Notes under the pieces: model-generated
What the model was told of the DNA's origin: nothing
Database searches by the model: none
The model's input: the letters and a program-made list of their open reading frames with translations, nothing else
In this document: positions 128-12,871 of the stretch, piece after piece
Numbering within the stretch: the stretch's first letter is position 1
Layout of the letters: each line of letters begins with the position of its first letter
Translations under genes and position numbers: made by a program
DNA from: a virus
IMG/VR virus record: IMGVR_UViG_3300046804_000728
Span: 1 to 20,102 of that record
DNA length: 20,102 nt
Strand: one strand, 5' to 3'

Positions 128-569
128 TCTCCATCCATTTATTATTCACGAGAAATCCCCATTCTCGTTTTTGCGGGCCCGGCATAAACAATGTCCAACA
201 TTCTACACCATCGCATAATTCAATACGATGATAAGAAGTGGATTTACATATACGGAAATGACCAGGGCCTCGCCACATTCTAATTTCACTAATTTTTTGA
301 CCAAGGGTGTTAAACTGCGGTACCCATTCGTAATAACCGCCTTTAAGGATTAGAGTTGCGTAGGGCCAAGGATGATCATGCACATGATCAGGATCGCTTT
401 TTAAAAACCTATGCAAAAATACATTAAATGGGAAAAGTTTTCTATCTTTTAAAAACACATAATACCGTTCAAGATATGGCTCATTATCTAAACGATCATA
501 TATAATGCGCTTACGATCTAATCTTTCCATGAGTGAAAAGAACTTATTTTTTGTTTTGTTCAGCATCAT
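84..569 (-). CDS. Small cupin-fold protein (161 aa)
   Basis: This protein looks like a one-domain cupin. Residues 62-66 form an HVHDH cluster followed by PW, and a later segment (about residues 104-115, GHFRICKSTSYHRIEL) supplies another His. Together they resemble the two metal-binding cupin motifs. Such proteins bind a divalent metal and may be dioxygenases, isomerases or binding proteins; no substrate can be named. Two adjacent ATG codons (569 and 566) are possible starts, both overlapping the end of the preceding gene by about 25 bases, which suggests translational coupling; no strong Shine-Dalgarno is seen. It sits at the tail of the modification/glycosyltransferase gene train, so a role in modifying a small molecule or sugar is conceivable but not shown. 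Confidence 0.6.
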   Translation of the reverse strand: MMLNKTKNKFFSLMERLDRKRIIYDRLDNEPYLERYYVFLKDRKLFPFNVFLHRFLKSDPDHVHDHPWPYATLILKGGYYEWVPQFNTLGQKISEIRMWRGPGHFRICKSTSYHRIELCDGVECWTLFMPGPQKREWGFLVNNKWMENGKYFEYRKSTRQQ

Positions 570-894
570 AGTCGTCTTTAATTAAGTTATACGTATTTTT
601 AAATTTTTCAAAGGCAATTTTAAAACCTGGATACTTTTCGCACATATCATTAATTTTTGATATGCTAGGCATAGTATCTACAAATTCTCTATATGAATAT
701 ATGTTTGTAGTGCCCCAATTTATAGTAGACGTTGTTCCTATTGCTTGTGTCATGCTTGGGGTTACTGTTACAAAATTGCCAATATTAGGAGAATTGTTTA
801 TTGTAATAGTATTCATTAATGACGATAAGTCAATATTAATGATATCACTATTTGATGTTGTTGAGTAAGATATTGGCTGAGAAGAAGTTGTCAT
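544..894 (-). CDS. Small virion-like protein with conserved-looking C-terminus (116 aa)
   Basis: The protein has two halves. The first 65 residues are rich in Ser, Thr, Asn and Ile with no charged clusters, as in phage structural proteins. The last 50 residues form a charged, helical-looking module with MCEKYPGFKIAFEKFKNTY. From memory, similar C-terminal modules occur in small proteins of T4-like marine phages, but I cannot verify this here. The start is well defined: ATG at 894 is preceded by GGAGG at 901-905 with a 6-base spacer, the strongest ribosome-binding site in this part of the window. It overlaps the end of the glycosyltransferase gene by 47 bases. A virion role is inference from composition and the strong translation signal. 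Confidence 0.55.
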   Translation of the reverse strand: MTTSSQPISYSTTSNSDIINIDLSSLMNTITINNSPNIGNFVTVTPSMTQAIGTTSTINWGTTNIYSYREFVDTMPSISKINDMCEKYPGFKIAFEKFKNTYNLIKDDYDAEQNKK

Positions 895-1948
895 GTAGGA
901 CCTCCACTTGTTTATGGATCATAGGTAGCCGTGTTGGATAATTATCCATATGTTCCATAATTTTTCTGCAAAGGTCTGGTCTATATACTGTGTAAGCATC
1001 GAAGCTCTCAGTCCATTTGCTAGGATATTTAAATGTGTCAAAATACATTTCTGTGTAACTAAGTCTATCTGGAACCATTGGAATTGCATCCACGATCGCG
1101 CCTTCATAACAAGAAATACCAAGTGTTTCTTGTAAGTTGGCACTAAAAACTAGTTTAGCTTCGCCTAACAAATTGTGATATTCATTCTTTGTTAGCTGTT
1201 GATCCTGACACACAACAAATTCATATTGTGGTAGATGGTCTTTTAAATCTCTAAAGATTTCAACCTGCTTCTCAGGTGCGATGCGATGTGGAAACAAAAT
1301 CAAATCACGCTTGGGCATGTTTTTATATTGCTGTAGAGTATCGCCTAGATACTCCATTGGCCAACCAGTGCGTACAAATTTGGGCCATTCGCCAGCAAGT
1401 ATTTCTACTATGTCATCTGCAAGCCACGGATTTTCTGTGGGAAAATCATTTAAGAGATTTGTAAAAAACATCTTAATATGAAAGTCTGTGGCAAAATAGT
1501 TATGATCAAATGCATAATAAAAACTTTTTTCAGCATGTCTGACCCAGGGCTTTTTACCAACTAAACGTCCTAAAAAGTCTTGAGGATCATATGAACCAGC
1601 ATGCCATAAGCCGTGTGTAGTTACTGGGATACCCAACAACTCACTCATATACTTTAAGTTTATAATGCCTGGATGCCAAGCGTCAGTAAAAATAAAGTGG
1701 TCGCCAGAATGAACGGATCCATTGCAAAACAACCTACCCATTTGTTCAACTTGGCTAGACTTGTATATATTAGTGCCGCCAAAATTAAGAAAGGCGCCAG
1801 GAGTAGTGGCACTAGGAATGTCCGTAGGACCAGAGATAATTTGAACATTGTGTCCAGCCTTTCGTAAGAGTGCAGGTACATGGGATTTCCATTGACCTGT
1901 ATACCTTGTTTCTACACTTTCTAAATCAACGAGAAAAATATTCGCCAT
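848..1948 (-). CDS. GT-B glycosyltransferase (366 aa)
   Basis: This is probably a glycosyltransferase of the GT-B fold, which moves a sugar from a nucleotide-sugar donor. The C-terminal half shows LILFPHRIAPEKQVEIF, the usual start of the donor-binding domain, and then an E-x7-E element at about residues 274-282 (QETLGISCYEGAIVDAIP), the signature of GT1/GT4-like enzymes that contacts the donor sugar. The N-terminal half starts like a Rossmann strand and continues with an acceptor-domain-like stretch (QWKSHVPALLRKAGHNVQII). The open frame extends upstream to a TTG, but I prefer ATG at 1948, where AGGGA precedes the start and the protein begins MANIFLVDLESVE. It overlaps the preceding gene by 23 bases. 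The acceptor might be modified phage DNA, a virion protein or a host glycan; nothing in the sequence decides. Confidence 0.75.
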   Translation of the reverse strand: MANIFLVDLESVETRYTGQWKSHVPALLRKAGHNVQIISGPTDIPSATTPGAFLNFGGTNIYKSSQVEQMGRLFCNGSVHSGDHFIFTDAWHPGIINLKYMSELLGIPVTTHGLWHAGSYDPQDFLGRLVGKKPWVRHAEKSFYYAFDHNYFATDFHIKMFFTNLLNDFPTENPWLADDIVEILAGEWPKFVRTGWPMEYLGDTLQQYKNMPKRDLILFPHRIAPEKQVEIFRDLKDHLPQYEFVVCQDQQLTKNEYHNLLGEAKLVFSANLQETLGISCYEGAIVDAIPMVPDRLSYTEMYFDTFKYPSKWTESFDAYTVYRPDLCRKIMEHMDNYPTRLPMIHKQVEVLHDNFFSANILLNNIK

Positions 1949-3702: not shown

Positions 3703-3952
3703 TTTTTTCTGCCTTAGAAATTTCGTATTGTTTAATGAGCCTAGTAACATCTTCCATACGTTCGGCAAACACATCCGGTGCTTGCTGAGAGGCAATTGTC
3801 ATATCCCAATCGCTAGGATAATGTCGCAACAATGAATTAGCAAGTTGCCTAATATCTTTAGGAACACGAGGAGTTCGTTTTGGACTACAAAGATCTATAA
3901 GGAACTTTTTAGTTTGTACTACTGCTCGATATCTTTCGTCGGGTAATGTCAT
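3692..3952 (-). CDS. BPSL0761-like small protein (86 aa)
   Basis: The N-terminus MTLPDERYRAVVQTKKFL followed by TPRVPKDIRQLANSLLRHYPS closely resembles the small bacterial family called BPSL0761, common in Proteobacteria and of unknown function. The phage copy adds a charged helical tail (FAERMEDVTRLIKQYEISKAEKN). ATG at 3952 overlaps the stop of the TGT-like gene as ATGA, so it is translationally coupled to the enzyme. Its position suggests an accessory or regulatory partner of the modification enzyme, or an acquired bacterial gene. The family call is from memory of the motif order; the function is open. Confidence 0.7.
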   Translation of the reverse strand: MTLPDERYRAVVQTKKFLIDLCSPKRTPRVPKDIRQLANSLLRHYPSDWDMTIASQQAPDVFAERMEDVTRLIKQYEISKAEKNEA

Positions 3953-5649
3953 TCTTTTACCTGTGATTCTAGCTGGTCTAATTTTAATTGTTCCTCTTCG
4001 GAAAATTCTTCATCGTGATCAGATTGTATTAAATTTGGGTCGTCTAAGTCAAATAGATTGGCAAACATTGTGCTAGCATTTACTGTTTTCTTGCCAGTAG
4101 CACCTCTAGTTCCGATAATAGTTTGCCAATATTTGTCATACTCTTCGATTATATCTTCAGATTCTTGTCTATTATTGGTTGCAAAAATGGCTTCAATGAT
4201 ATCTTTAAAGAATACTCTATTAAATTTCTCATTAACTAACATGTTTGGACACTTACCTAGATCATATTGTCTGTTAGCCTCTTGGACACTATTACAATGC
4301 ATCCAAACATTATGACCCATCATAATAGCATAGCTAAAACTATCCCAACTAGTCTTGCCTTCTTTGCCTATTTTGTTCTTATCACCGGGTGCGTAAATGC
4401 ATACATCTTTCATTTCGACTTGATCGATTATAGGACTTGATTGAAAGTTTTTAAAGATTTTGTCTTGGATGACAGCGTCTTTGAATAGTCTTGTGTCAGA
4501 AGCATATTTTTTGTCGTCTGCTGACGGGACCATTCTGTAGACCCACTTAGTTCTGTCTTCTGTTTCTGTTTGGATATAGATTTGTCCATTTGCTGTTGCC
4601 AAAAACGGTGAGGCGCAGTCAAAAGATATGGTAAAGTTTTCATTGTGATATTTCCTTACAGCACGTTGAATGTCTGTGAGCAATACAGCCCACTCTAGTT
4701 TACTGGTGCCCAAGAAGTGCATCCAGTCTTGTTGGCCTTTTTCCAACAATCCATCATGGCGCAAAGCCACTAATCTTTTTAGTACAAGGTGAATGTCGCA
4801 CATGTTCTGTCCACCCATTGCCCAACCGTTAAATGCCTTGTCTCCATAAACTTTAGGATCACAGAATTCTTTCATCTGTTGATACCAATCTTCTGCTTCG
4901 CTGTGTGTTTCGCCTTGGAGAACATTTAAAAACTTACATGCACCTGTTCGGTGCTTGATCCAATATTGGTTATTATATTTTGTAGCATTAACAGCATCTT
5001 GGTATGAACTTATACCTGTTGCTTTAATACCTGCCGGACTACGGCATACCCATGCAGGAATATCTAGTACCATGCCATAGTCCATTAATGCATCCATCCA
5101 TCTGAGAACGCTATCGCGTTTTTGTTGAGCCGCATCTAGCCTTGCTTGATATAGTTTAACGTGATCAACTTTAGAATGCTTGGGATTTCCGTTTTTATCT
5201 AATTTAGGATTTCCAGAAGCATCTAATTGTGGAACAAGTTGTATGCCCTTACTGACAGCATCTGCCATAAGTGCCTTTACTTCTTGACTATTTGGATCTC
5301 GCCACTCGCCTTCCCATACACCTTTACCAATCTGGAATCCACCCGAATCGCCGACTACTAGGCTAGTTGAACGATCTCTGTTGCGAAACATATCTTCGCT
5401 GTCATCTTTTTTAGATAAATCTAAATTTGCATGACCAGCTGAATATAAACACCATTTGTAATAAAATAAACCAGCATCTGGTTCAAGGTAGTTTAAACTT
5501 TCTATGCTAGTTGTAAAACTTTTAGGAATACGTGCAGGCTCAACATAGTTGCCATATCGTTGCTTTCCTATGAAAGTAGCATAAAAACCTGATGTAGCCG
5601 GCAAAAACACAGCATAGTCATTCTGTGTTGCCGTTAAATTTTTATTCAA
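3949..5649 (-). CDS. tRNA-guanine transglycosylase / DpdA-like base-exchange enzyme (566 aa)
   Basis: This enzyme belongs to the TGT superfamily, which swaps guanine for a 7-deazaguanine base in tRNA or, in DpdA proteins, in DNA. Visible motifs: DSGGFQ at 101-106 (first catalytic Asp and substrate loop), LQGE at 244-247, GWAMGG at 275-280, LGTS at 313-316, and SFDCASPFLATANG at 342-355, matching the FDCVxPTRNARNG region with the nucleophilic Asp at 344. The usual TGT zinc motif (CxCxxC plus His) is not obvious, which fits phage DNA-modifying forms better than bacterial Tgt. No in-frame ATG exists near the N-terminus; TTG at 5649 follows AGAGG. It is longer than bacterial Tgt (about 375 residues), with a helical, acidic C-terminus. 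The neighbours (QueD-like, nuclease) suggest phage DNA as substrate; tRNA remains possible. Confidence 0.8.
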   Translation of the reverse strand: MNKNLTATQNDYAVFLPATSGFYATFIGKQRYGNYVEPARIPKSFTTSIESLNYLEPDAGLFYYKWCLYSAGHANLDLSKKDDSEDMFRNRDRSTSLVVGDSGGFQIGKGVWEGEWRDPNSQEVKALMADAVSKGIQLVPQLDASGNPKLDKNGNPKHSKVDHVKLYQARLDAAQQKRDSVLRWMDALMDYGMVLDIPAWVCRSPAGIKATGISSYQDAVNATKYNNQYWIKHRTGACKFLNVLQGETHSEAEDWYQQMKEFCDPKVYGDKAFNGWAMGGQNMCDIHLVLKRLVALRHDGLLEKGQQDWMHFLGTSKLEWAVLLTDIQRAVRKYHNENFTISFDCASPFLATANGQIYIQTETEDRTKWVYRMVPSADDKKYASDTRLFKDAVIQDKIFKNFQSSPIIDQVEMKDVCIYAPGDKNKIGKEGKTSWDSFSYAIMMGHNVWMHCNSVQEANRQYDLGKCPNMLVNEKFNRVFFKDIIEAIFATNNRQESEDIIEEYDKYWQTIIGTRGATGKKTVNASTMFANLFDLDDPNLIQSDHDEEFSEEEQLKLDQLESQVKE

Positions 5650-5660: not shown

Positions 5661-6392
5661 TTATTTAGAATAAGCAGGCAGAATGTAGTTGTATTCTGCT
5701 ATTCCACTATCAACTGTAATTTGCATAGCACCACCATCGGAAATTTTTATAGAAATATCACCTGGTAAGTTTAAAATACTTTGTACTTTGCTAACTGGCC
5801 ATGCCCAGACCTGTTTTAATTTGCCTGTAATGCCTTGCTGGAAAACAAAACTACCTGCATGAGTACTTGCATCACCGAATTGGAAGACTAAATTTCCATT
5901 TTCAGTTTTAACTTGAAATGTTTCTTCTTCACTGTGTGCTTGTGCTTGGAATTTTAATCTATTAACACTGCCTAAGTTTGGTTCAAATTCTATATCCCAG
6001 TTGATATTTTTTAATTTTGCAGTTTTTAATCTGTCATTAATAATTTCCATACTCATAAATCTGTAGTCATTTTCAAAATCACCTGTTGCATTTTCAAAAT
6101 GCAACCCAGTAGGCACTACTTCATTATTTCTATTTTGTTTAACTACATTAATTTTAGCATTATCTTTATATTCTGGACATCTTAAATGTATATCTAATTT
6201 ATTCAAATTAGGCATACCAAATGTGCCATCTAAATCTGCCACTGGGCTATGTGTTTTTGCGTTTAAAACAACAGAACGATCATCCGCAATTGATTCTACC
6301 ATTGTTTCTTTATCCGAAGATATAATTTTAACTAATGGTATAAATCCAAGGCTGTGTGTATGTGTTACTAAATCTTGTAAAAAGTCTTTCAT
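5661..6392 (-). CDS. 45: Sliding clamp, gp45-type (243 aa)
   Basis: This is the probable DNA polymerase sliding clamp, a homotrimeric ring that tethers gp43 to DNA and, in T4, also activates late transcription. Length fits gp45 (228 residues in T4). The C-terminal stretch with ISIKISDGGAMQITVDSG and EYNYILPA is typical of phage clamps, and beta-rich repeats with FQFGDAS and WAWPVSKVQSIL occur before it. The start is ATG at 6392, preceded by GGAG at 6399-6402; the longer frame from 6440 would run through the promoter. The gene has its own consensus sigma70 promoter, and the DNA polymerase lies one gene upstream. No clamp-loader genes (44, 62) are in the window. The identification rests on the C-terminal pattern, length and context, not on a catalytic motif. 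Confidence 0.82.
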   Translation of the reverse strand: MKDFLQDLVTHTHSLGFIPLVKIISSDKETMVESIADDRSVVLNAKTHSPVADLDGTFGMPNLNKLDIHLRCPEYKDNAKINVVKQNRNNEVVPTGLHFENATGDFENDYRFMSMEIINDRLKTAKLKNINWDIEFEPNLGSVNRLKFQAQAHSEEETFQVKTENGNLVFQFGDASTHAGSFVFQQGITGKLKQVWAWPVSKVQSILNLPGDISIKISDGGAMQITVDSGIAEYNYILPAYSK

Positions 6393-6411
6393 AAGTGTCT
6401 CCATATTAATG

Positions 6412-6440
6412 ATTATATAAAATAAACAAACAAATGTCAA
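6412..6440 (-). promoter_or_regulatory. Consensus sigma70 promoter for the sliding clamp
   Basis: On the minus strand TTGACA (6435-6440) is followed by exactly 17 bases and TATAAT (6412-6417). Both boxes match the sigma70 consensus in all six positions. Transcription would start near 6405, about 13 bases before the clamp ATG. It would drive the clamp and very likely the whole leftward modification cassette, as early genes read by unmodified host RNA polymerase. Confidence 0.9.
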
Positions 6441-6445
6441 TATTA

Positions 6446-7222
6446 TTATTGCCGAATTGTTTTGTTATATTGAACTGCTGTGTTCAATATGTCTGTTGGT
6501 GTATTTAGATCTAGAGCATACTTTACAAAAGAATTTGTATCCTTAGGAAAACATGCACCACCGAACCCCCGCTCACCATCCGGGCCAGGAACTTGCATAT
6601 GACTCGTGCCAATTCTTGGATCGTTTTTCATAATGTTAGCAATATTATCATAGTTTGCACCGTTTGCTTGACAAATGTCATATATTTGATTAAAGAAAGC
6701 AACTTTCAAACTTAAAAAAGAATTTATTGTGTATTTTATCATACTGGCTTCTGTGGGTGTGCAAGTAATAACTCCCCATGGCCCTAAATTTTTTAATGAT
6801 GACTTGAATAGATGTTGCCAGATAGTTGTGTTTGAACCGCCCAATATCATATAAGTTTGATTGGCAAAATCTTCGTTAGCAGTTGCCGCCCGTAGAAATT
6901 CTGGACCATAAGTTATACTATGATTAGGAAAATCTTTAATAATTTTTTCTAACTTATCTGGAATAACTGTAGACTTGATTAGTATAGGCATGTGTACTGG
7001 AACTTGATTTAACACGTTGTAAATCTGACTTACATCGCATCCCCCTTCACCATCATTTGGTGTACCTACACAAATAATTACACCATCGGCATCTGGATGA
7101 TCGGCTACAGTATTAGGTGTATATGCTGGATCAACAATATGTAATTCGTTTTCTTTTATCAACGCTTCAAATACAGCTTTGCCTACAAATCCGTAGCCTG
7201 CAATAATAAGTTTCTTTTGCAT
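6446..7222 (-). CDS. Short UDP-glucose/GDP-mannose dehydrogenase-like protein (258 aa)
   Basis: The protein is a nucleotide-sugar 6-dehydrogenase of the UDP-glucose/GDP-mannose family, which oxidises the sugar to a uronic acid with two NAD+. Motifs seen: GYGFVG at 9-14 (NAD-binding), KSTVIP at 83-88, YGPEFLRAATA at 105-115, Lys163 in MIKYTINSFLSLKVAF, and GGACFPKD with catalytic Cys224. The family is usually 380-450 residues; this copy ends soon after the cysteine and lacks the C-terminal UDP-sugar-binding domain. It is not obviously a broken gene, because the stop is clean and the promoter of the next gene follows at once. It starts two bases after the polymerase stop. A minimal active enzyme, a binding protein or a relic are possible. 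Confidence 0.8.
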   Translation of the reverse strand: MQKKLIIAGYGFVGKAVFEALIKENELHIVDPAYTPNTVADHPDADGVIICVGTPNDGEGGCDVSQIYNVLNQVPVHMPILIKSTVIPDKLEKIIKDFPNHSITYGPEFLRAATANEDFANQTYMILGGSNTTIWQHLFKSSLKNLGPWGVITCTPTEASMIKYTINSFLSLKVAFFNQIYDICQANGANYDNIANIMKNDPRIGTSHMQVPGPDGERGFGGACFPKDTNSFVKYALDLNTPTDILNTAVQYNKTIRQ

Positions 7223-7224
7223 AA

Positions 7225-9891
7225 TTAAAACTCAAACAAACTGTTAAATGTATTTTTTTCTTCTGTAGATTTAATATCCCATTTCAACACACCAATTAAG
7301 TTTTCTAATTTATTATCAATAATAGTCTGTTCCATTTCAGCATCATCAAACGGCAAATCTTTAAACCACTGAGGTAGTCGTAATTCGTCTACAGGATACG
7401 CAACTGATGTAAATCCGAGCGGATTTTGTTTTACTTTACAAACAATTACTTTAGCACCATCGGTAATGTTCATTGAGTATTTGTCATTGAACATACGCTT
7501 CAATGTATTCCAGTTAATACTTGCTCGAACGTGTCCAGGCATATTAGCCTTGCCTTGTTTCTTTTCTTTTGCTTCGTACTCTGTGATATTATTGGCACGT
7601 TTGGGCGAACCTTTTTCCCAACCAGGCCGTGCCTTAAATTTAATTCTAAATTCACTAATATGATCTAATACTTGTTCTTCAGTAGCACCAGTAAGAACCA
7701 TTTCAAGAACTTCACTTAAAAAGTCTTGAATAAATTCTGGAGTATCACTGCGCTTAAGATCCAACCCCATGGCTTTAATTTTACCCGGTTTGCCTTCTAC
7801 ATCTGAACGTTTACCTTCTTTGTCATAATAAAGAACAGCATACCGTTTTTTAGTAATGAACAAACCTTTGATAGCAACAATTTCACGACCTGCTTTAATA
7901 ACTTCACCGCGACTCTTAGGACAATGAAAAGCATCTAACATAAATTGTTGGAATGTGCCATTAACTTCTTCGCCAATTTGATCATATAATTGAACAACAG
8001 TTTCCTTAGTCCATGGTATTTGTCCTGCATCTATTTCATTTTTTAAGGTTCTAAATGCTGAAAAGTAACAACTGTCTGTATCTCCATAGATAATGGCTTT
8101 GCCGATATGATTATATTCTCCCGCAACAATCTCATTGACTTTTCCAGCCATATGCTTTGCGATCTGACGCCCAGTAAGAGTTGTAGATTGGCCGATGCGC
8201 TTATCAAAAAAGCGACAACCAGGATTAAGAATGGCGCCATAGAGCGAGTTAAGGTTAATCTTCTTGACCAGTTGTCGCTTGTCCCAATATTCTTCTTCAA
8301 TTTTATTGCCAGCATTAATAGCCTCCTTTAGCTTGGCCTGCATTTCTTTACGTTCCGCATACCAACGTTTTAATAGCCCTGGAATAATACCCTCAGTTTC
8401 GTAGGTAAAAATAGTACCATTAGCCGAAATTACCCAAGGTTGATTGCTTTCAAATATTAATCTATAAACTTCTGCGGCACTGAGTATATCACTAGAACCA
8501 TCTTCCCAGTCAATAGTAATATCTGTGCCAATCTCTTGATTCATTACCGCAGTATATTCTAATGTACCAAACATGCCTTCCCAAGCAGCCGCAAATGATT
8601 TTCCTTTGGCTATATGTGCTTGAATATATTCGTCTGTCATAATAGGTCGTAACTGCCCGATAATAGTTTCGGGGCCCATGTTTAGAGCACGAATGGCACT
8701 TGGATAAAGACTGTTAATGTCTAGCGAACCAATCCAGTCATGAATACCTTCTTTAGGATATGCAACATACGCACCAGCGGCCGCAGTATCTTCACGCTCG
8801 TCCATCTTTTTACGATTTGGTACAACAAATCCTCTACGATGTGCTTCGTTAATAATTGCTTGTTCTGTAACAGCAACAGCACCCATTGTAGTTTGGATCA
8901 ATACAGTGTTTTCGTGTGCTAGTGTATTAGCAAGATCTAAGAATTTTAATTTTTTATCTAAGTCGTCTAAAAGTTTACAGTCATTGATGTTGTATTCAAC
9001 AAAAGTTCGAAAATCATTGTTATAAAGTTGGTCCAACGTTCCTTCATATTGAGTCTTACGCTGGCCCAATTCATATTCGGCAATGGCATCTAGACGATAA
9101 CTGTGACGTTCTTCGTATGTGTATTTGCGATATAATTCTAAATAGTCTACATGAACACGACCGATGAAGTCATAAGTGACTGCACTACGCCCAAATTTTT
9201 CGTATTCTCTTTTTCTAGGAAATAGATCAAATAAACAAAAGCGCCTTGTATCTTCTTTGCTTAAGACTTTGGTAACACGATTAACAGTATACGGAACGTC
9301 AAAGCCTTCCGAGTTCCACCCGCTAATCACATCAGCATCTTTAATTAAATCTAAAAATGTATCTAATAATGCCGCTTCGTTATCAAACAGCATTACATTG
9401 GTAAAATCTTTTATTGCCTCCTTTGCCTCCAACATAGACATCTTTTTAGGAGGAATAGCCAAACACACCATAGTTTCTAGCCATTGTAGGTAAACAGCAA
9501 TTGCAGTAATTGGCATGAACGCATCGTCTGGACTAGCATAACCGCGTTCTGGATCGAAATCTACCTCAATATCAAAAAAGGCTGCATTTAATTTTGGTGC
9601 GTCAGCATTAAGATAGTTTTCACTTAGACAAACAAATATTGGATTGATGTCTGCTTCATACAGTGTCTTGCCACTGTTAATGGCTTGTTCTTTACGTAGC
9701 TCTTTGGTATTTTTACAGACAATGCGCGATACAGGATCGCCATAGATTGAAACGTGTTTGCCCTTAGGGTCTTTGACGTATAGTGTGTGGCGCACAGGAA
9801 TATCTTTAAATTCACGCTCGCCTTTTTTGTTACGTTCAACAATTTTGATGATATCATCATCCCTGTTGAAGTATGCATCAACATAGCTCAT
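7225..9891 (-). CDS. 43: DNA polymerase, family B, gp43-type (888 aa)
   Basis: This is the phage replicative DNA polymerase with 3'-5' proofreading. Exonuclease motifs: FFDIEVDF (Asp107, Glu109), GWNSEGFDVPY (Asp198) and YNINDC (Tyr300, Asp304). Polymerase motifs: A, SLDINSLYPS (389-398); B, KKINLNSLYGA (543-553); C, YGDTDS (602-607); and KKRYAV (681-686) in the palm/thumb region. Length matches T4 gp43 (898). The last residues, TFNSLFEF, resemble the clamp-binding tail of T4/RB69 polymerase, consistent with the gp45-type clamp two genes on. ATG at 9891 follows GGAG at 9900-9903. The leader carries an extended -10 promoter and two tandem hairpins, suggesting translational autocontrol. All catalytic residues are present, so it should be active. 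Confidence 0.98.
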   Translation of the reverse strand: MSYVDAYFNRDDDIIKIVERNKKGEREFKDIPVRHTLYVKDPKGKHVSIYGDPVSRIVCKNTKELRKEQAINSGKTLYEADINPIFVCLSENYLNADAPKLNAAFFDIEVDFDPERGYASPDDAFMPITAIAVYLQWLETMVCLAIPPKKMSMLEAKEAIKDFTNVMLFDNEAALLDTFLDLIKDADVISGWNSEGFDVPYTVNRVTKVLSKEDTRRFCLFDLFPRKREYEKFGRSAVTYDFIGRVHVDYLELYRKYTYEERHSYRLDAIAEYELGQRKTQYEGTLDQLYNNDFRTFVEYNINDCKLLDDLDKKLKFLDLANTLAHENTVLIQTTMGAVAVTEQAIINEAHRRGFVVPNRKKMDEREDTAAAGAYVAYPKEGIHDWIGSLDINSLYPSAIRALNMGPETIIGQLRPIMTDEYIQAHIAKGKSFAAAWEGMFGTLEYTAVMNQEIGTDITIDWEDGSSDILSAAEVYRLIFESNQPWVISANGTIFTYETEGIIPGLLKRWYAERKEMQAKLKEAINAGNKIEEEYWDKRQLVKKINLNSLYGAILNPGCRFFDKRIGQSTTLTGRQIAKHMAGKVNEIVAGEYNHIGKAIIYGDTDSCYFSAFRTLKNEIDAGQIPWTKETVVQLYDQIGEEVNGTFQQFMLDAFHCPKSRGEVIKAGREIVAIKGLFITKKRYAVLYYDKEGKRSDVEGKPGKIKAMGLDLKRSDTPEFIQDFLSEVLEMVLTGATEEQVLDHISEFRIKFKARPGWEKGSPKRANNITEYEAKEKKQGKANMPGHVRASINWNTLKRMFNDKYSMNITDGAKVIVCKVKQNPLGFTSVAYPVDELRLPQWFKDLPFDDAEMEQTIIDNKLENLIGVLKWDIKSTEEKNTFNSLFEF

Positions 9892-9904
9892 TTATTTCTC
9901 TCCA

Positions 9905-9922
9905 TGCGATTTAAGGCTCGCA
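9905..9922 (-). promoter_or_regulatory. RNA hairpin 1 before the polymerase start (probable gp43 operator)
   Basis: The minus-strand leader forms TGCGA / TCGCA, a 5-bp stem with an 8-base loop GCCTTAAA, ending one base before the GGAG of the polymerase gene. T4 and RB69 gp43 repress their own translation by binding a hairpin with a short stem and an 8-nt loop at this position. The loop sequence differs from T4, so the call rests on position, loop size and duplication. Confidence 0.7.
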
Positions 9923-9934
9923 AATACCCTACAT

Positions 9935-9950
9935 GCGGATTATGGCCCGC
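9935..9950 (-). promoter_or_regulatory. RNA hairpin 2, near-copy of hairpin 1
   Basis: GCGG / CCGC form a 4-bp stem around the 8-base loop GCCATAAT, exactly 29 bases upstream of hairpin 1. The elements share GCGR-GCCNTAAN-YCGC-ATG. The stem base pair next to the loop is G-C here and A-T in hairpin 1, a compensatory change that supports paired RNA. Confidence 0.65.
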
Positions 9951-9961
9951 CTTGCCTTTAT

Positions 9962-9990
9962 ATTATAGCAGGTTTAGATACGTTTTGTAA
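9962..9990 (-). promoter_or_regulatory. Extended -10 sigma70 promoter for the DNA polymerase
   Basis: TGCTATAAT (TATAAT at 9962-9967, TG at 9969-9970) is a full extended -10 element. A weak -35, TTACAA at 9985-9990, lies 17 bases upstream. It overlaps the end of the DsbA-like gene and would give a leader of about 64 bases holding both hairpins. Confidence 0.75.
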
Positions 9991-10231
9991 TATCCAAAAT
10001 TGCTTCAATTTCTTCCCAATCTTCGTTATACGCTTGCCAATCACCTTTGTGGGCAATTTTAATTGCTTTGTTTATAATGCTTGGTTTAATTTGTAATTCT
10101 TCTGCAACTGCCTTAACTGTTTCTTTTAAGCCTTCTTGTAAATCTTCTACTTCGCGTAATACTGTAGAACCTTCACTGATTAATCTTTCTAATTTTGCCT
10201 TTTCTTCAGGACCATAACTTCTACCAGCCAT
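9974..10231 (-). CDS. dsbA: DsbA-like small dsDNA-binding protein (85 aa)
   Basis: The protein is probably related to T4 DsbA, a double-stranded DNA-binding protein connected with late transcription. The C-terminal two thirds (LKETVKAVAEELQIKPSIIN, then KIAHKGDW and DWEEIEAILD) follow the pattern of T4 DsbA, where a helix with KDELGVDGKMFNRLLALYHK precedes an acidic C-terminal helix. Length (85 versus 89) agrees. The N-terminus (MAGRSYGPEEKAKLERLISE) is a charged helix. ATG at 10231 follows GAGGAG, a strong ribosome-binding site, and the gene has its own promoter just upstream. The match is by pattern and size only; another small DNA-binding factor remains possible. Confidence 0.65.
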   Translation of the reverse strand: MAGRSYGPEEKAKLERLISEGSTVLREVEDLQEGLKETVKAVAEELQIKPSIINKAIKIAHKGDWQAYNEDWEEIEAILDITKRI

Positions 10232-10306: not shown

Positions 10307-12871
10307 TTAAAGATCATCTTTGATTGTGTATAGCTCTTTTCTTATACTTGGATTAGTTGTTTTACTCAAATCATTAACTAAATCGTTAACTCTTTTTGCA
10401 ATTTTATTAAAGGCCTCCAAATCATCTTCTTCTTCAGGTGTAAGTTTTTCTGCATGTCCTGCTTGTGAATTCACAGTGCTATTATTAGGCTTGCCACTAT
10501 CAGTAGTATTGTTACTATTGGTGGTATTGCTACTATTGGGCTTGTTACTATCGGTAGTATTGCTACTGTTGGTAGTATTGCTACTGTTGGTAGTATTGCT
10601 ACTAGGCGGCTTTTCAATTTTGCCACCATTACCATCGGCTACTGTGCCATCACCATAATCTGTCCCAGCAGGATCATGCTTGCCAGGATTTGCTTCCTTC
10701 CATTTTTTATATTCCATCGTACCGTAAATTAAGGCAGCACCTAACGCACCAAGATTTAACCATTTTCCTACAGTTCCATTTCTAAAAGCATCTCCTGCCT
10801 TGGTCCATATAGATGGTTTAACATCAGCGCTGCCGGGTACATGTACTGGCTCACCTGGTTCTTTAACTGGTTCTTTAACTGGATCTTTAACTGGCTCTTT
10901 AGCTGGATCTTTAACTGGCTCTTTAGCTGGATCTTTAACTGGCTCTTTAGCTGGATCTTTAACTGGCTCTTTAGCTGGATCTTTAACTGGCTCTTTAGCT
11001 GGACCCGGCTTAACTACATTTTCTCCGTCCTTATTATTAGCAGGAAAATTTTCTCCTTTGTCTTTCCTAGTCTGTGCTGGAATTTGATCTCTTGGATTAA
11101 TACCTAGTTCTTTATCTTTAATTGCTTTATTAATTGCGTCATTTAATGAATCGGGTGCATTTTTTAACGTACCATTTTCAAGTTGTTCAGCCCACCTCCT
11201 ACCATTCCAAATATAAGTTTTTCCGCCGTGCTCTACTATATCGCCCGCTGATTTTTCAACATTTCCTGTTATAATCTTTCCTGCTCCTTCAGCTTCTTTA
11301 CCAAATGCCGCAGCCTTAAAGTCTTTAAACAATTTTAATATTGTGGACCAAGCCCCTGGGGTGCGATTAATTACAGCCCCTGTCGCCGTCTCTTCGTTTA
11401 CATCCGGTTGTTTAGACAAGACACCTGATGCTACTATTTCTAAGTTTTTTGGGTTTACTTGATTACCCTCTTCATCAAATAACCCCCCATTAGGCAACAT
11501 AATGTACGCTCTTTTATCTTTGTAAAAAAAGATAGGAGGATATTTTTTAGCTTCGTCACGTATATCTTCTGCACCGCCTTCTTCATTTTCAGTTCCTTCT
11601 TGAATTCTGTGAGGAATGTTTAAAAATTTAGCAGTAGTATCATCTAATTCACCGCTTGGATTTAGTTTATTTTTCTTTTGAAAATCTTTAAGGGCCGTCT
11701 TTGTTTTTTCGTCTAATTCACCAGTTACTGGTTTTATACCTAATACAGCTTGTAAGACTTTGATCCTATTTGAGTAGTTGTCAGAGTCTCTTTTTATATT
11801 CCAAAGATCTAAACCAACAGACGTCCATCCAGCATAGGGAATAAATGCAATCCCAGTACTTAATCCAGAAATGCCTGCTCCTACCCAATCACCGTCTCTT
11901 GCTCTTACATAAGTATCATATGCTCCATAACCTGCTGCCATGCCTGGCAATGGAGCTAATAGAATTTTTTTCCATAAGCTCGGATTTTTAGATATTGCAC
12001 TCGATATTACTCCACCGTAGCCCATAGATGCTAGATAACCTACTAGATCGGGATCAAGATCAAAGTCCTCATTTAACTTATCTTCTTTATAAGATCCAAT
12101 TAACATTGCAGCCAAGTTAGATTTGAATTCAATTGATTCTTTAACTTTAGTAACGCCTGGAGGAAGTTTAGGTGGTAAGTATATAGTGCCAGCACTTACT
12201 ACACCAGGTTGTCCTTCTATTGATCCAAGATAATCCCTTGACTGTGCAGGATTGTAAACATAAACAGTTCCATCACCGTATTCCCGCCATTCCCAACCAT
12301 TACTTAATTTTGTAGTTGTAAATTTATCTGGATTTTTGCCAGTCGAAAGTCTGCCTGCTTGACTGTCACTACTATTGGCGTTTTGATTTCTTTGTTTACG
12401 TCTTGCCGCAGCAGTTTTCTTCTTAAGATCACGATACTTAGGCATCAATCTTCTTAGTTCTTCTAATTCTTCTTGTTCAAGTTCTGCTCTATCTTGAGTT
12501 GCTATAGCTGTTTTACTTTGGGCTCTTAAATCAGCGTCGTAATCTTTTCCGCTAGTACCAAATATTCTACCCCAGAATGTGCTTGTAGCCGCATTGTCGG
12601 GAATTAGGCCCATATAGGCTAATCTTTTATCATCTTCTTTAGGTGCAGTATCTGATACGCCACCGCTGACTGTAATGTATTTGCCAGTAACTGGATCGTA
12701 TAAACCGGGTAATTTTTCATCGTTGGCTAATTGGCGTAACTTAGCAAATCGTTCTTTGTCGTTGCCTTCTTGCCCTGCAATTTGAGTAATAATATTTTTT
12801 AAACGTAGATCTTCAGCAAGTATTAAACTTTCTAACAGATCCATTTTGTTTAGTAGTTTTCTAAAATCCAT
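10307..12871 (-). CDS. Large virion-type protein with peptidoglycan-binding domain (854 aa)
   Basis: A large modular protein of unknown exact role. In order: a hydrophilic N-terminus (MDFRKLLNKMDLLESLILAED), a charged coiled-coil-like region (about 115-165, EEEL/KKK/RRK), a Trp/Tyr segment (NGWEWREYGDGTVYVYNP, near 190), a small hydrophobic, Gly-rich region (about 275-355) that could touch membranes, and a peptidoglycan-binding type 1 domain at about 368-418 (KVLQAVLGIKPVTGELDEKT and TALKDFQKKNKL). Then come a TYIWNGRRWAEQ segment, eight-residue repeats (DPAKEPVK), a short hydrophobic stretch (LGALGAALIYG), Ser/Asn/Thr repeats and a charged tail. ATG at 12871 follows AGGA. No lysozyme or peptidase catalytic motif is visible. 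It may be an internal or ejected protein, or a cell-wall-binding structural protein. Confidence 0.75.
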   Translation of the reverse strand: MDFRKLLNKMDLLESLILAEDLRLKNIITQIAGQEGNDKERFAKLRQLANDEKLPGLYDPVTGKYITVSGGVSDTAPKEDDKRLAYMGLIPDNAATSTFWGRIFGTSGKDYDADLRAQSKTAIATQDRAELEQEELEELRRLMPKYRDLKKKTAAARRKQRNQNANSSDSQAGRLSTGKNPDKFTTTKLSNGWEWREYGDGTVYVYNPAQSRDYLGSIEGQPGVVSAGTIYLPPKLPPGVTKVKESIEFKSNLAAMLIGSYKEDKLNEDFDLDPDLVGYLASMGYGGVISSAISKNPSLWKKILLAPLPGMAAGYGAYDTYVRARDGDWVGAGISGLSTGIAFIPYAGWTSVGLDLWNIKRDSDNYSNRIKVLQAVLGIKPVTGELDEKTKTALKDFQKKNKLNPSGELDDTTAKFLNIPHRIQEGTENEEGGAEDIRDEAKKYPPIFFYKDKRAYIMLPNGGLFDEEGNQVNPKNLEIVASGVLSKQPDVNEETATGAVINRTPGAWSTILKLFKDFKAAAFGKEAEGAGKIITGNVEKSAGDIVEHGGKTYIWNGRRWAEQLENGTLKNAPDSLNDAINKAIKDKELGINPRDQIPAQTRKDKGENFPANNKDGENVVKPGPAKEPVKDPAKEPVKDPAKEPVKDPAKEPVKDPAKEPVKDPVKEPVKEPGEPVHVPGSADVKPSIWTKAGDAFRNGTVGKWLNLGALGAALIYGTMEYKKWKEANPGKHDPAGTDYGDGTVADGNGGKIEKPPSSNTTNSSNTTNSSNTTDSNKPNSSNTTNSNNTTDSGKPNNSTVNSQAGHAEKLTPEEEDDLEAFNKIAKRVNDLVNDLSKTTNPSIRKELYTIKDDL
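10493..10611 (-). repeat. Short in-frame repeats coding Ser/Asn/Thr tract
   Basis: Imperfect units of about 18 bases encode SNTTNS-type repeats, broken by DSNKPN and DSGKPN segments. The tract is low-complexity and hydrophilic, as in flexible linkers of virion proteins. Bounds are approximate. Confidence 0.75.
10881..11000 (-). repeat. Five exact 24-bp tandem repeats
   Basis: Five perfect copies of a 24-base unit are arranged head to tail, with degenerate copies from about 10857 to 10880. In frame they encode the eight-residue repeat DPAKEPVK. The identity of third-codon bases across copies points to recent slippage or recombination; the array length probably varies between relatives. Confidence 0.95.

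Follow-up and report, generated by a model that had tools for sequence, protein, structure and literature searches.

A conserved tandem-pseudoknot leader, probably a translational operator, precedes the gp43-like DNA polymerase gene of a group of uncultured phages

The window, by which we mean the whole 20,102-nt stretch that was analysed (positions 1–20,102 of IMGVR_UViG_3300046804_000728), carries on its minus strand a gene for an 888-aa family B DNA polymerase of the T4/RB69 gp43 type (7225..9891; Pfam DNA_pol_B and exo1). The best profile and structure matches of this protein were phrog_262 (E 1e-200) and RB69 gp43 (1clq; E 1e-61), respectively, and its start codon is the ATG at 9891. The gene upstream (9974..10231, minus strand) encodes a small DsbA-like transcription factor of 85 aa, which matched PF11126 (E 9e-5) with a score slightly under the curated cutoff and also matched phrog_639, a transcriptional regulator. 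The 82-nt gap between these two genes contains, on the minus strand, the two hairpins that are the subject of this study. Directly 3′ of the polymerase lies a UDP-glucose/GDP-mannose dehydrogenase-like gene (window 6446–7222, minus strand), which separates the polymerase from a possible sliding-clamp-like gene (5661–6440; phrog_12062, function unknown). Further along, a 566-aa protein (window 3949–5649, minus strand) contains a DSGGFQ motif that recalls tRNA-guanine transglycosylase/DpdA enzymes; it had no match in Pfam, PHROGs or NCBIfam. On the other side of the leader, an 854-aa ORF (10307–12871) has an internal 12-base tandem repeat (window 10831–11034) encoding a (KEPVKDPA)-like repeat, as well as weak peptidoglycan-binding-like matches around residues 370–415.

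An earlier note on this DNA had described two hairpins with 8-nt loops, 29 nt apart, ahead of the polymerase gene, and both are present where it placed them. Unit 1 is GCGG-GCCATAAT-CCGC (9950..9935, minus strand) and unit 2 is GCGA-GCCTTAAA-TCGC (9921..9906, minus strand), in which T9922–A9905 adds a fifth pair; the register between the units is 29 nt. The window contains exactly two exact matches to GCGNGCCNTAANNCGC, and these are the two hairpins. The nearer hairpin was said to end beside the Shine–Dalgarno sequence, and it does: after A9905, the last base of the stem, a single nucleotide (T9904) precedes GGAGAG (9898..9903, minus strand), and in 208/224 relatives the Shine–Dalgarno sequence follows the stem after 0–3 nt. 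A consensus scan also identified a promoter-like −10 hexamer, TATAAT (9962..9967, minus strand), preceded by the TGC of the extended −10 type. Minimum-energy folding was uninformative for this leader. The fold energy of the whole 78-nt leader was no better than that of shuffled sequences (z +0.53), with z values of −4.4 and −1.4 for the two single hairpins, and the case for structure therefore depends on relatives.

We gathered relatives from IMG/VR by protein-guided scans and one pattern scan, which yielded 358 loci and 230 distinct leaders with polymerase homologues that are about 72–100% identical. Both units were present in 230/230 distinct leaders. They lie next to the polymerase in 225 of these, including one (L392) whose partly N-masked unit 1 was read from its near twin L390, and are pushed upstream by an inserted gene in the other five (L011, L195, L218, L027 and L162). 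The plan of the unit is constant across relatives: GGY, a short L1 (usually 1–3 nt), a stem of 4–5 bp, the loop GCC-NNAAA and the returning stem strand; in one group of unit 1 sequences, one base bulges from the 5′ side of the stem. The leader was not found in a search of isolated phages, and the element was absent from distant jumbo-phage polymerases (Phosso, Atu_ph07, 121Q, Vibrio 2.275.O, RaK2 and SCTP-2) and from the metagenome-assembled contigs L538–L540. No Rfam family matched the leader, either at gathering score or up to E 5, with the preQ1 families included.

The earlier note had proposed a covariation search of related polymerase leaders; when this was run, the polymerase tree showed dozens of two-sided changes in stem pairs. 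In unit 2 (alignment A1, 88 distinct 24-mers), 100% of cells were paired, and four of the five pairs of the stem (S2) had changed on both sides. The covariation score was reached by 0/500 shuffles, and sliding the 3′ partners by 1–3 columns lowered pairing from 100% to 26–39%. For the 5-bp type of unit 1 (alignment A2, 39 distinct sequences), 5/5 S2 pairs had changed on both sides; these S2 counts are mildly selected upward by the hairpin parser, which demanded stems of at least four pairs, with almost no leader lost thereby. Mapped on a tree built from 221 polymerases, changes in the two middle S2 pairs of unit 2 number 55–62, with nearly equal counts for the 5′ and 3′ sides. Pairing of unit 1 with unit 2 was considered and ruled out: stem arms agree in only 3/165 leaders, so the units vary independently of each other.

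Although the structured, covarying and doubled units of the earlier note stand, its reading of them as simple hairpins with 8-nt loops does not, because loop nucleotides 1–3 pair with an upstream GGY. A conserved GG(U/C) lies a few nucleotides 5′ of each stem and complements the first three loop bases, GCC. Among 225 parsed unit 1 elements, this second helix (S1) combines GGY with GCC in 202 and AGU with GCU in 20. Just two deviations occur, each with one pair broken: UGU with GCC (L187) and GGU with UCC (L395/L009). S1 of unit 1 is fully paired in 222/224, a level that shuffles approach at no more than 208. In alignment A2, the first S1 pair is GC in 32, AU in 6 and other in 1, and the third is UG in 34 and CG in 5. 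On the tree of 221 polymerases, AGU changes and GCU changes number six each and are concordant in 6/6 independent pairs (p 0.031); six independent double changes convert G-C to A-U in S1, and no such conversion is confined to one side of the pair. GCU loops occur in 20 distinct polymerase leaders, and AGU accompanies the loop in all of them; the pattern scan behind this count accepted either A or G as the first S1 base and could have returned GGU with GCU. The third S1 position is only ever U or C, opposite G, and the S1 third pairs comprise about 360 U-G and zero A-C. Many G-U pairs and no A-C pairs indicate that it is the mRNA strand that folds, as RNA. These observations bear on the suggestion that the hairpins arose by chance or form a DNA-level element such as a protein site or an origin: the ordinary fold energy of the leader would fit it, but the dozens of double stem changes and the plentiful G-U pairs without A-C on the mRNA strand make it extremely improbable, and we consider it refuted by covariation.

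In unit 2, S1 is nearly uniform. Its 5′ strand has GG in 224/224 relatives and T at the third position in 223/224, and its loop strand GCC is invariant in parsed unit 2 elements. The variant loops found elsewhere have matching 5′ strands: ACC in L195, where S1 is GGU:ACC, and GCUC in the sister clade C (L519/L484 and L464/L465; polymerases about 64% identical), where S1 is re-coded as GAGU:GCUC and the loop reads GCUC-AAAA or GCUC-GAAA. S1 is re-coded as a block between polymerase clades. A scan for unit 2 variants with the TGCAA stem and a third loop base other than C yielded 95 stretches, none of them ahead of a polymerase. Because S1 of unit 2 does not vary within the core clade, the evidence that it pairs in that clade comes from clade C, from L195 and from its resemblance to unit 1.

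The short L1 and the A-rich, 5-nt L3 of these units match the needs of H-type pseudoknots whose S1 is 3 bp and whose S2 is 4–5 bp. In this leader (all positions minus strand), pseudoknot 1 would consist of the S1 5′ strand GGC (9954..9956), which pairs with 9944–9946; L1, AAG (9951..9953; mostly 1–3 nt in relatives); the S2 5′ arm GCGG (9947..9950); the S1 3′ strand, loop GCC (9944..9946; GCT in those relatives, and only those, whose 5′ strand is AGT); the A-rich L3, ATAAT (9939..9943; loop nucleotides 4, 6 and 7 are A in 205/205 eight-nucleotide loops); and the S2 3′ arm CCGC (9935..9938). After a 6-nt spacer (9929..9934; 5 or 6 nt in 203/224 relatives), pseudoknot 2 would comprise GGT (9926..9928) as the S1 5′ strand; ATT (9923..9925) as L1, which is ATT in 180/225 and GTT in 25/225; the S2 5′ arm TGCGA (9918..9922), 4/5 of whose pairs vary on both sides; loop GCC (9915..9917) as the S1 3′ strand; an A-rich L3, TTAAA (9910..9914), with A at loop nucleotides 6–7 in 214–215/215; and the S2 3′ arm TCGCA (9905..9909). 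Comparative pairing identifies each unit as a compact H-type pseudoknot whose S1 is GGY:GCC. Taken across the relatives, the alignments establish both helices, folding as RNA and not DNA, the mRNA strand, the doubling of the unit and the link to the polymerase gene.

We compared this leader with known regulatory leaders. T4 and RB69 gp43 are autogenous translational repressors that act through a leader hairpin, and RNA and DNA binding by T4 gp43 are mutually exclusive (PMC3014915, PMC535899). The gene 43 operator of T4 and RB69 resembles the present leader in lying before a homologous polymerase gene, in having an 8-nt loop and a variable stem near the Shine–Dalgarno sequence, and in having TATAAT just upstream. 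It is, however, one hairpin with the loop AAUNACUC and no reported evidence for a pseudoknot (PMC3014915), whereas the leader here has two units with the loop GCC-NNAAA, the 5′ part of which is paired with an upstream GGY. The note had described the loop as unlike that of T4, and the comparison agrees, with GC(C/U)NNAAN here against AAUNACUC there. The nine leaders compared, from T4 and its closer relatives, all have a single hairpin with AAUNACUC (UAAC core) or a near form in its loop, and our unit model does not match these leaders. In T4 we noticed potential GAGU:ACUC pairing but set it aside, as this GAGU is part of the GGAGTATAAT promoter box and is conserved in neither Merlin nor VR7. 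By these comparisons the leader falls structurally outside the T4-type operators, although its mode of action may be similar.

The nearest architectures are the gene 32 pseudoknot and the tandem pseudoknots of STAXI, neither of which has the structure of this leader. The T4/T2/RB69 gene 32 pseudoknot is likewise of H-type, lies in the leader of a replication protein and nucleates translational repression (PMC3014915, PMC535899). That operator is a single pseudoknot about 67 nt before the start codon, followed by unstructured UUAAA repeats; here there are two pseudoknots, the second abuts the Shine–Dalgarno sequence, and the gene encodes a polymerase and not a single-stranded DNA-binding protein (SSB). 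STAXI (RF01728) also repeats a pseudoknot unit in tandem close to genes whose products manipulate DNA, but it usually has three repeats with UUCG tetraloops and lies near SSB, topoisomerase, antirestriction and integrase genes (PMC2864571). The RF01728 covariance model did not match the leader up to E 5. According to a 2010 review, translational autoregulation may involve no viral pseudoknot other than that of T4 gene 32, and the gene 43 operator shows no evidence of one (PMC3014915). Against that background, a large group of uncultured phages with T4-gp43-like polymerases has two pseudoknots before this very gene. The doubled operator suggested by the note fits the comparative data and had no described counterpart in the open-access literature, in which we likewise found no description of a tandem-pseudoknot polymerase leader. 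As judged from its conservation pattern, the tandem-pseudoknot polymerase leader is real and strongly conserved, and it is apparently undescribed.

The units are kept in hundreds of related uncultured phages and end at the ribosome-binding site, and they are therefore very probably a switch that limits the amount of polymerase. We consider it probable that the leader is a doubled-pseudoknot translational operator, with unit 2 ending at the Shine–Dalgarno sequence and the polymerase as likely cognate repressor. The components of this proposal differ in strength. That the leader represses translation initiation is very probable. That the polymerase is the ligand, giving autogenous control, is somewhat favoured, on the precedent of T4 and RB69 gp43, each of which shuts off its own synthesis via a hairpin in its leader. 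In the proposed mechanism, the leader of the polymerase mRNA would fold into two consecutive H-type pseudoknots, the second ending at the Shine–Dalgarno sequence. The cognate protein, most likely free DNA polymerase outside replication, would bind and lock the folded leader, which would keep the 30S subunit off the Shine–Dalgarno sequence and shut down polymerase synthesis once enough polymerase is present; having two sites would raise the threshold or sharpen the response. Counting against a pseudoknot operator, S1 is only 3 bp long and mostly includes one U-G pair; the two S1 deviations, the separate Shine–Dalgarno sequence of the L011 polymerase and the absence of the element from distant jumbo phages weigh on the same side.

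A doubled operator of the same kind might instead serve another repressor, such as an SSB/gp32-like protein, a RegA-like protein, a clamp, a ribosomal protein or a dedicated small repressor from phage or host. T4 gp32 does repress its own mRNA by binding a pseudoknot (PMC3014915, PMC535899), and STAXI tandem pseudoknots occur near SSB genes (PMC2864571); T4 RegA sites, however, are unstructured (PMC3014915), and a general regulator should have more targets. When two unit covariance models were run against 16 contigs (76–278 kb, about 2.1 Mb), every match with E <0.01 lay at the polymerase leader. These contigs, which may be fragments, show the units only before the polymerase, so we discarded the idea of a wider regulon and regard another repressor as unlikely. 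The same tie to a single gene bears on the idea that the pseudoknots form a riboswitch that would gate the Shine–Dalgarno sequence upon binding of a small-molecule ligand (nucleotide or 7-deazaguanine precursor), with the tandem arrangement for steepness. Small H-type pseudoknots at the Shine–Dalgarno sequence resemble preQ1-type riboswitches in size and place, and the near-invariant unpaired A residues in L3 would suit a bound small molecule. We nevertheless judge a riboswitch very unlikely, given that no Rfam family, preQ1 included, matched up to E 5, and that the element is strictly tied to a single clade's replication protein, its S1 and L1 differing from clade to clade, which a coevolving protein explains better than an unchanging metabolite.

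In relatives, an A+T-rich, late-promoter-like TATAAATA/TATAAT-like box lies about 19–22 nt 5′ of the unit 1 GGY, and in 219/223 leaders an A stands two positions ahead of that GGY. The position of this box just 5′ of unit 1 suggests that the transcript may begin just before unit 1; in the window, a transcript from TATAAT may start about at pseudoknot 1. Such a start would put unit 1 near the 5′ end of the mRNA, which would suit a leader with no trans-acting ligand, whose folds merely set a low constitutive rate of initiation or protect the 5′ end. The abutment of unit 2 on the Shine–Dalgarno sequence would suit it too, as would clade B (L500, L533, L518, L511 and others; polymerases about 66% identical), which retains unit 2, often with the Shine–Dalgarno sequence itself (CGGAG) inside the 3′ arm. 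The invariant loop GCC and A residues, the presence of two like units and the fixed spacing of 5–6 nt are more than stability needs, and we consider a leader of this sort quite unlikely. The natural S1 series GGU:GCC, AGU:GCU, GGU:ACC and GAGU:GCUC offers direct tests of RNA recognition by DNA polymerases and of the doubling, and the compact covariance signature can be used for annotating such phages.

Inserted ORFs between the leader and the polymerase belong to four families of 40–341 aa with no clear family assignment. In L162, L027, L218, L195 and L532, each begins right after unit 2, and its stop overlaps the polymerase start: by ATGA for a 46-aa ORF (L162/L072; L162 1364–1504) and for a 57-aa ORF (L027 3831–4004), by TAATG for the copy of the latter in L218 (1015–1188), by 14 nt for a 40-aa ORF (L195 1392–1514) and by TTGA for a 341-aa ORF of clade B (L532 and L534; L532 479–1504). 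This pattern of overlaps suggests selection for translational coupling that holds the polymerase under operator control, as genes slipped in between would stay controlled in this way. A broader proposal, which we hold tentatively and would put a little short of an even chance, is that the leader represents an undescribed RNA class: a cooperative two-pseudoknot operator that senses free family B polymerase, coevolves with it and imposes coupling on inserts. L011 is an exception, with an opposite-strand, DUF723-like insert (172–975, minus strand) and a polymerase that has its own Shine–Dalgarno sequence; by its look, this insert is probably a mobile, endonuclease-type gene. In clade B (for example, L533, L518 and L501), unit 1 is replaced by a conserved hairpin, GARTC-GCYC-ACGTTAC-GRGC, which lies about 40–65 nt before the polymerase start and sometimes has a GTAA-type loop.
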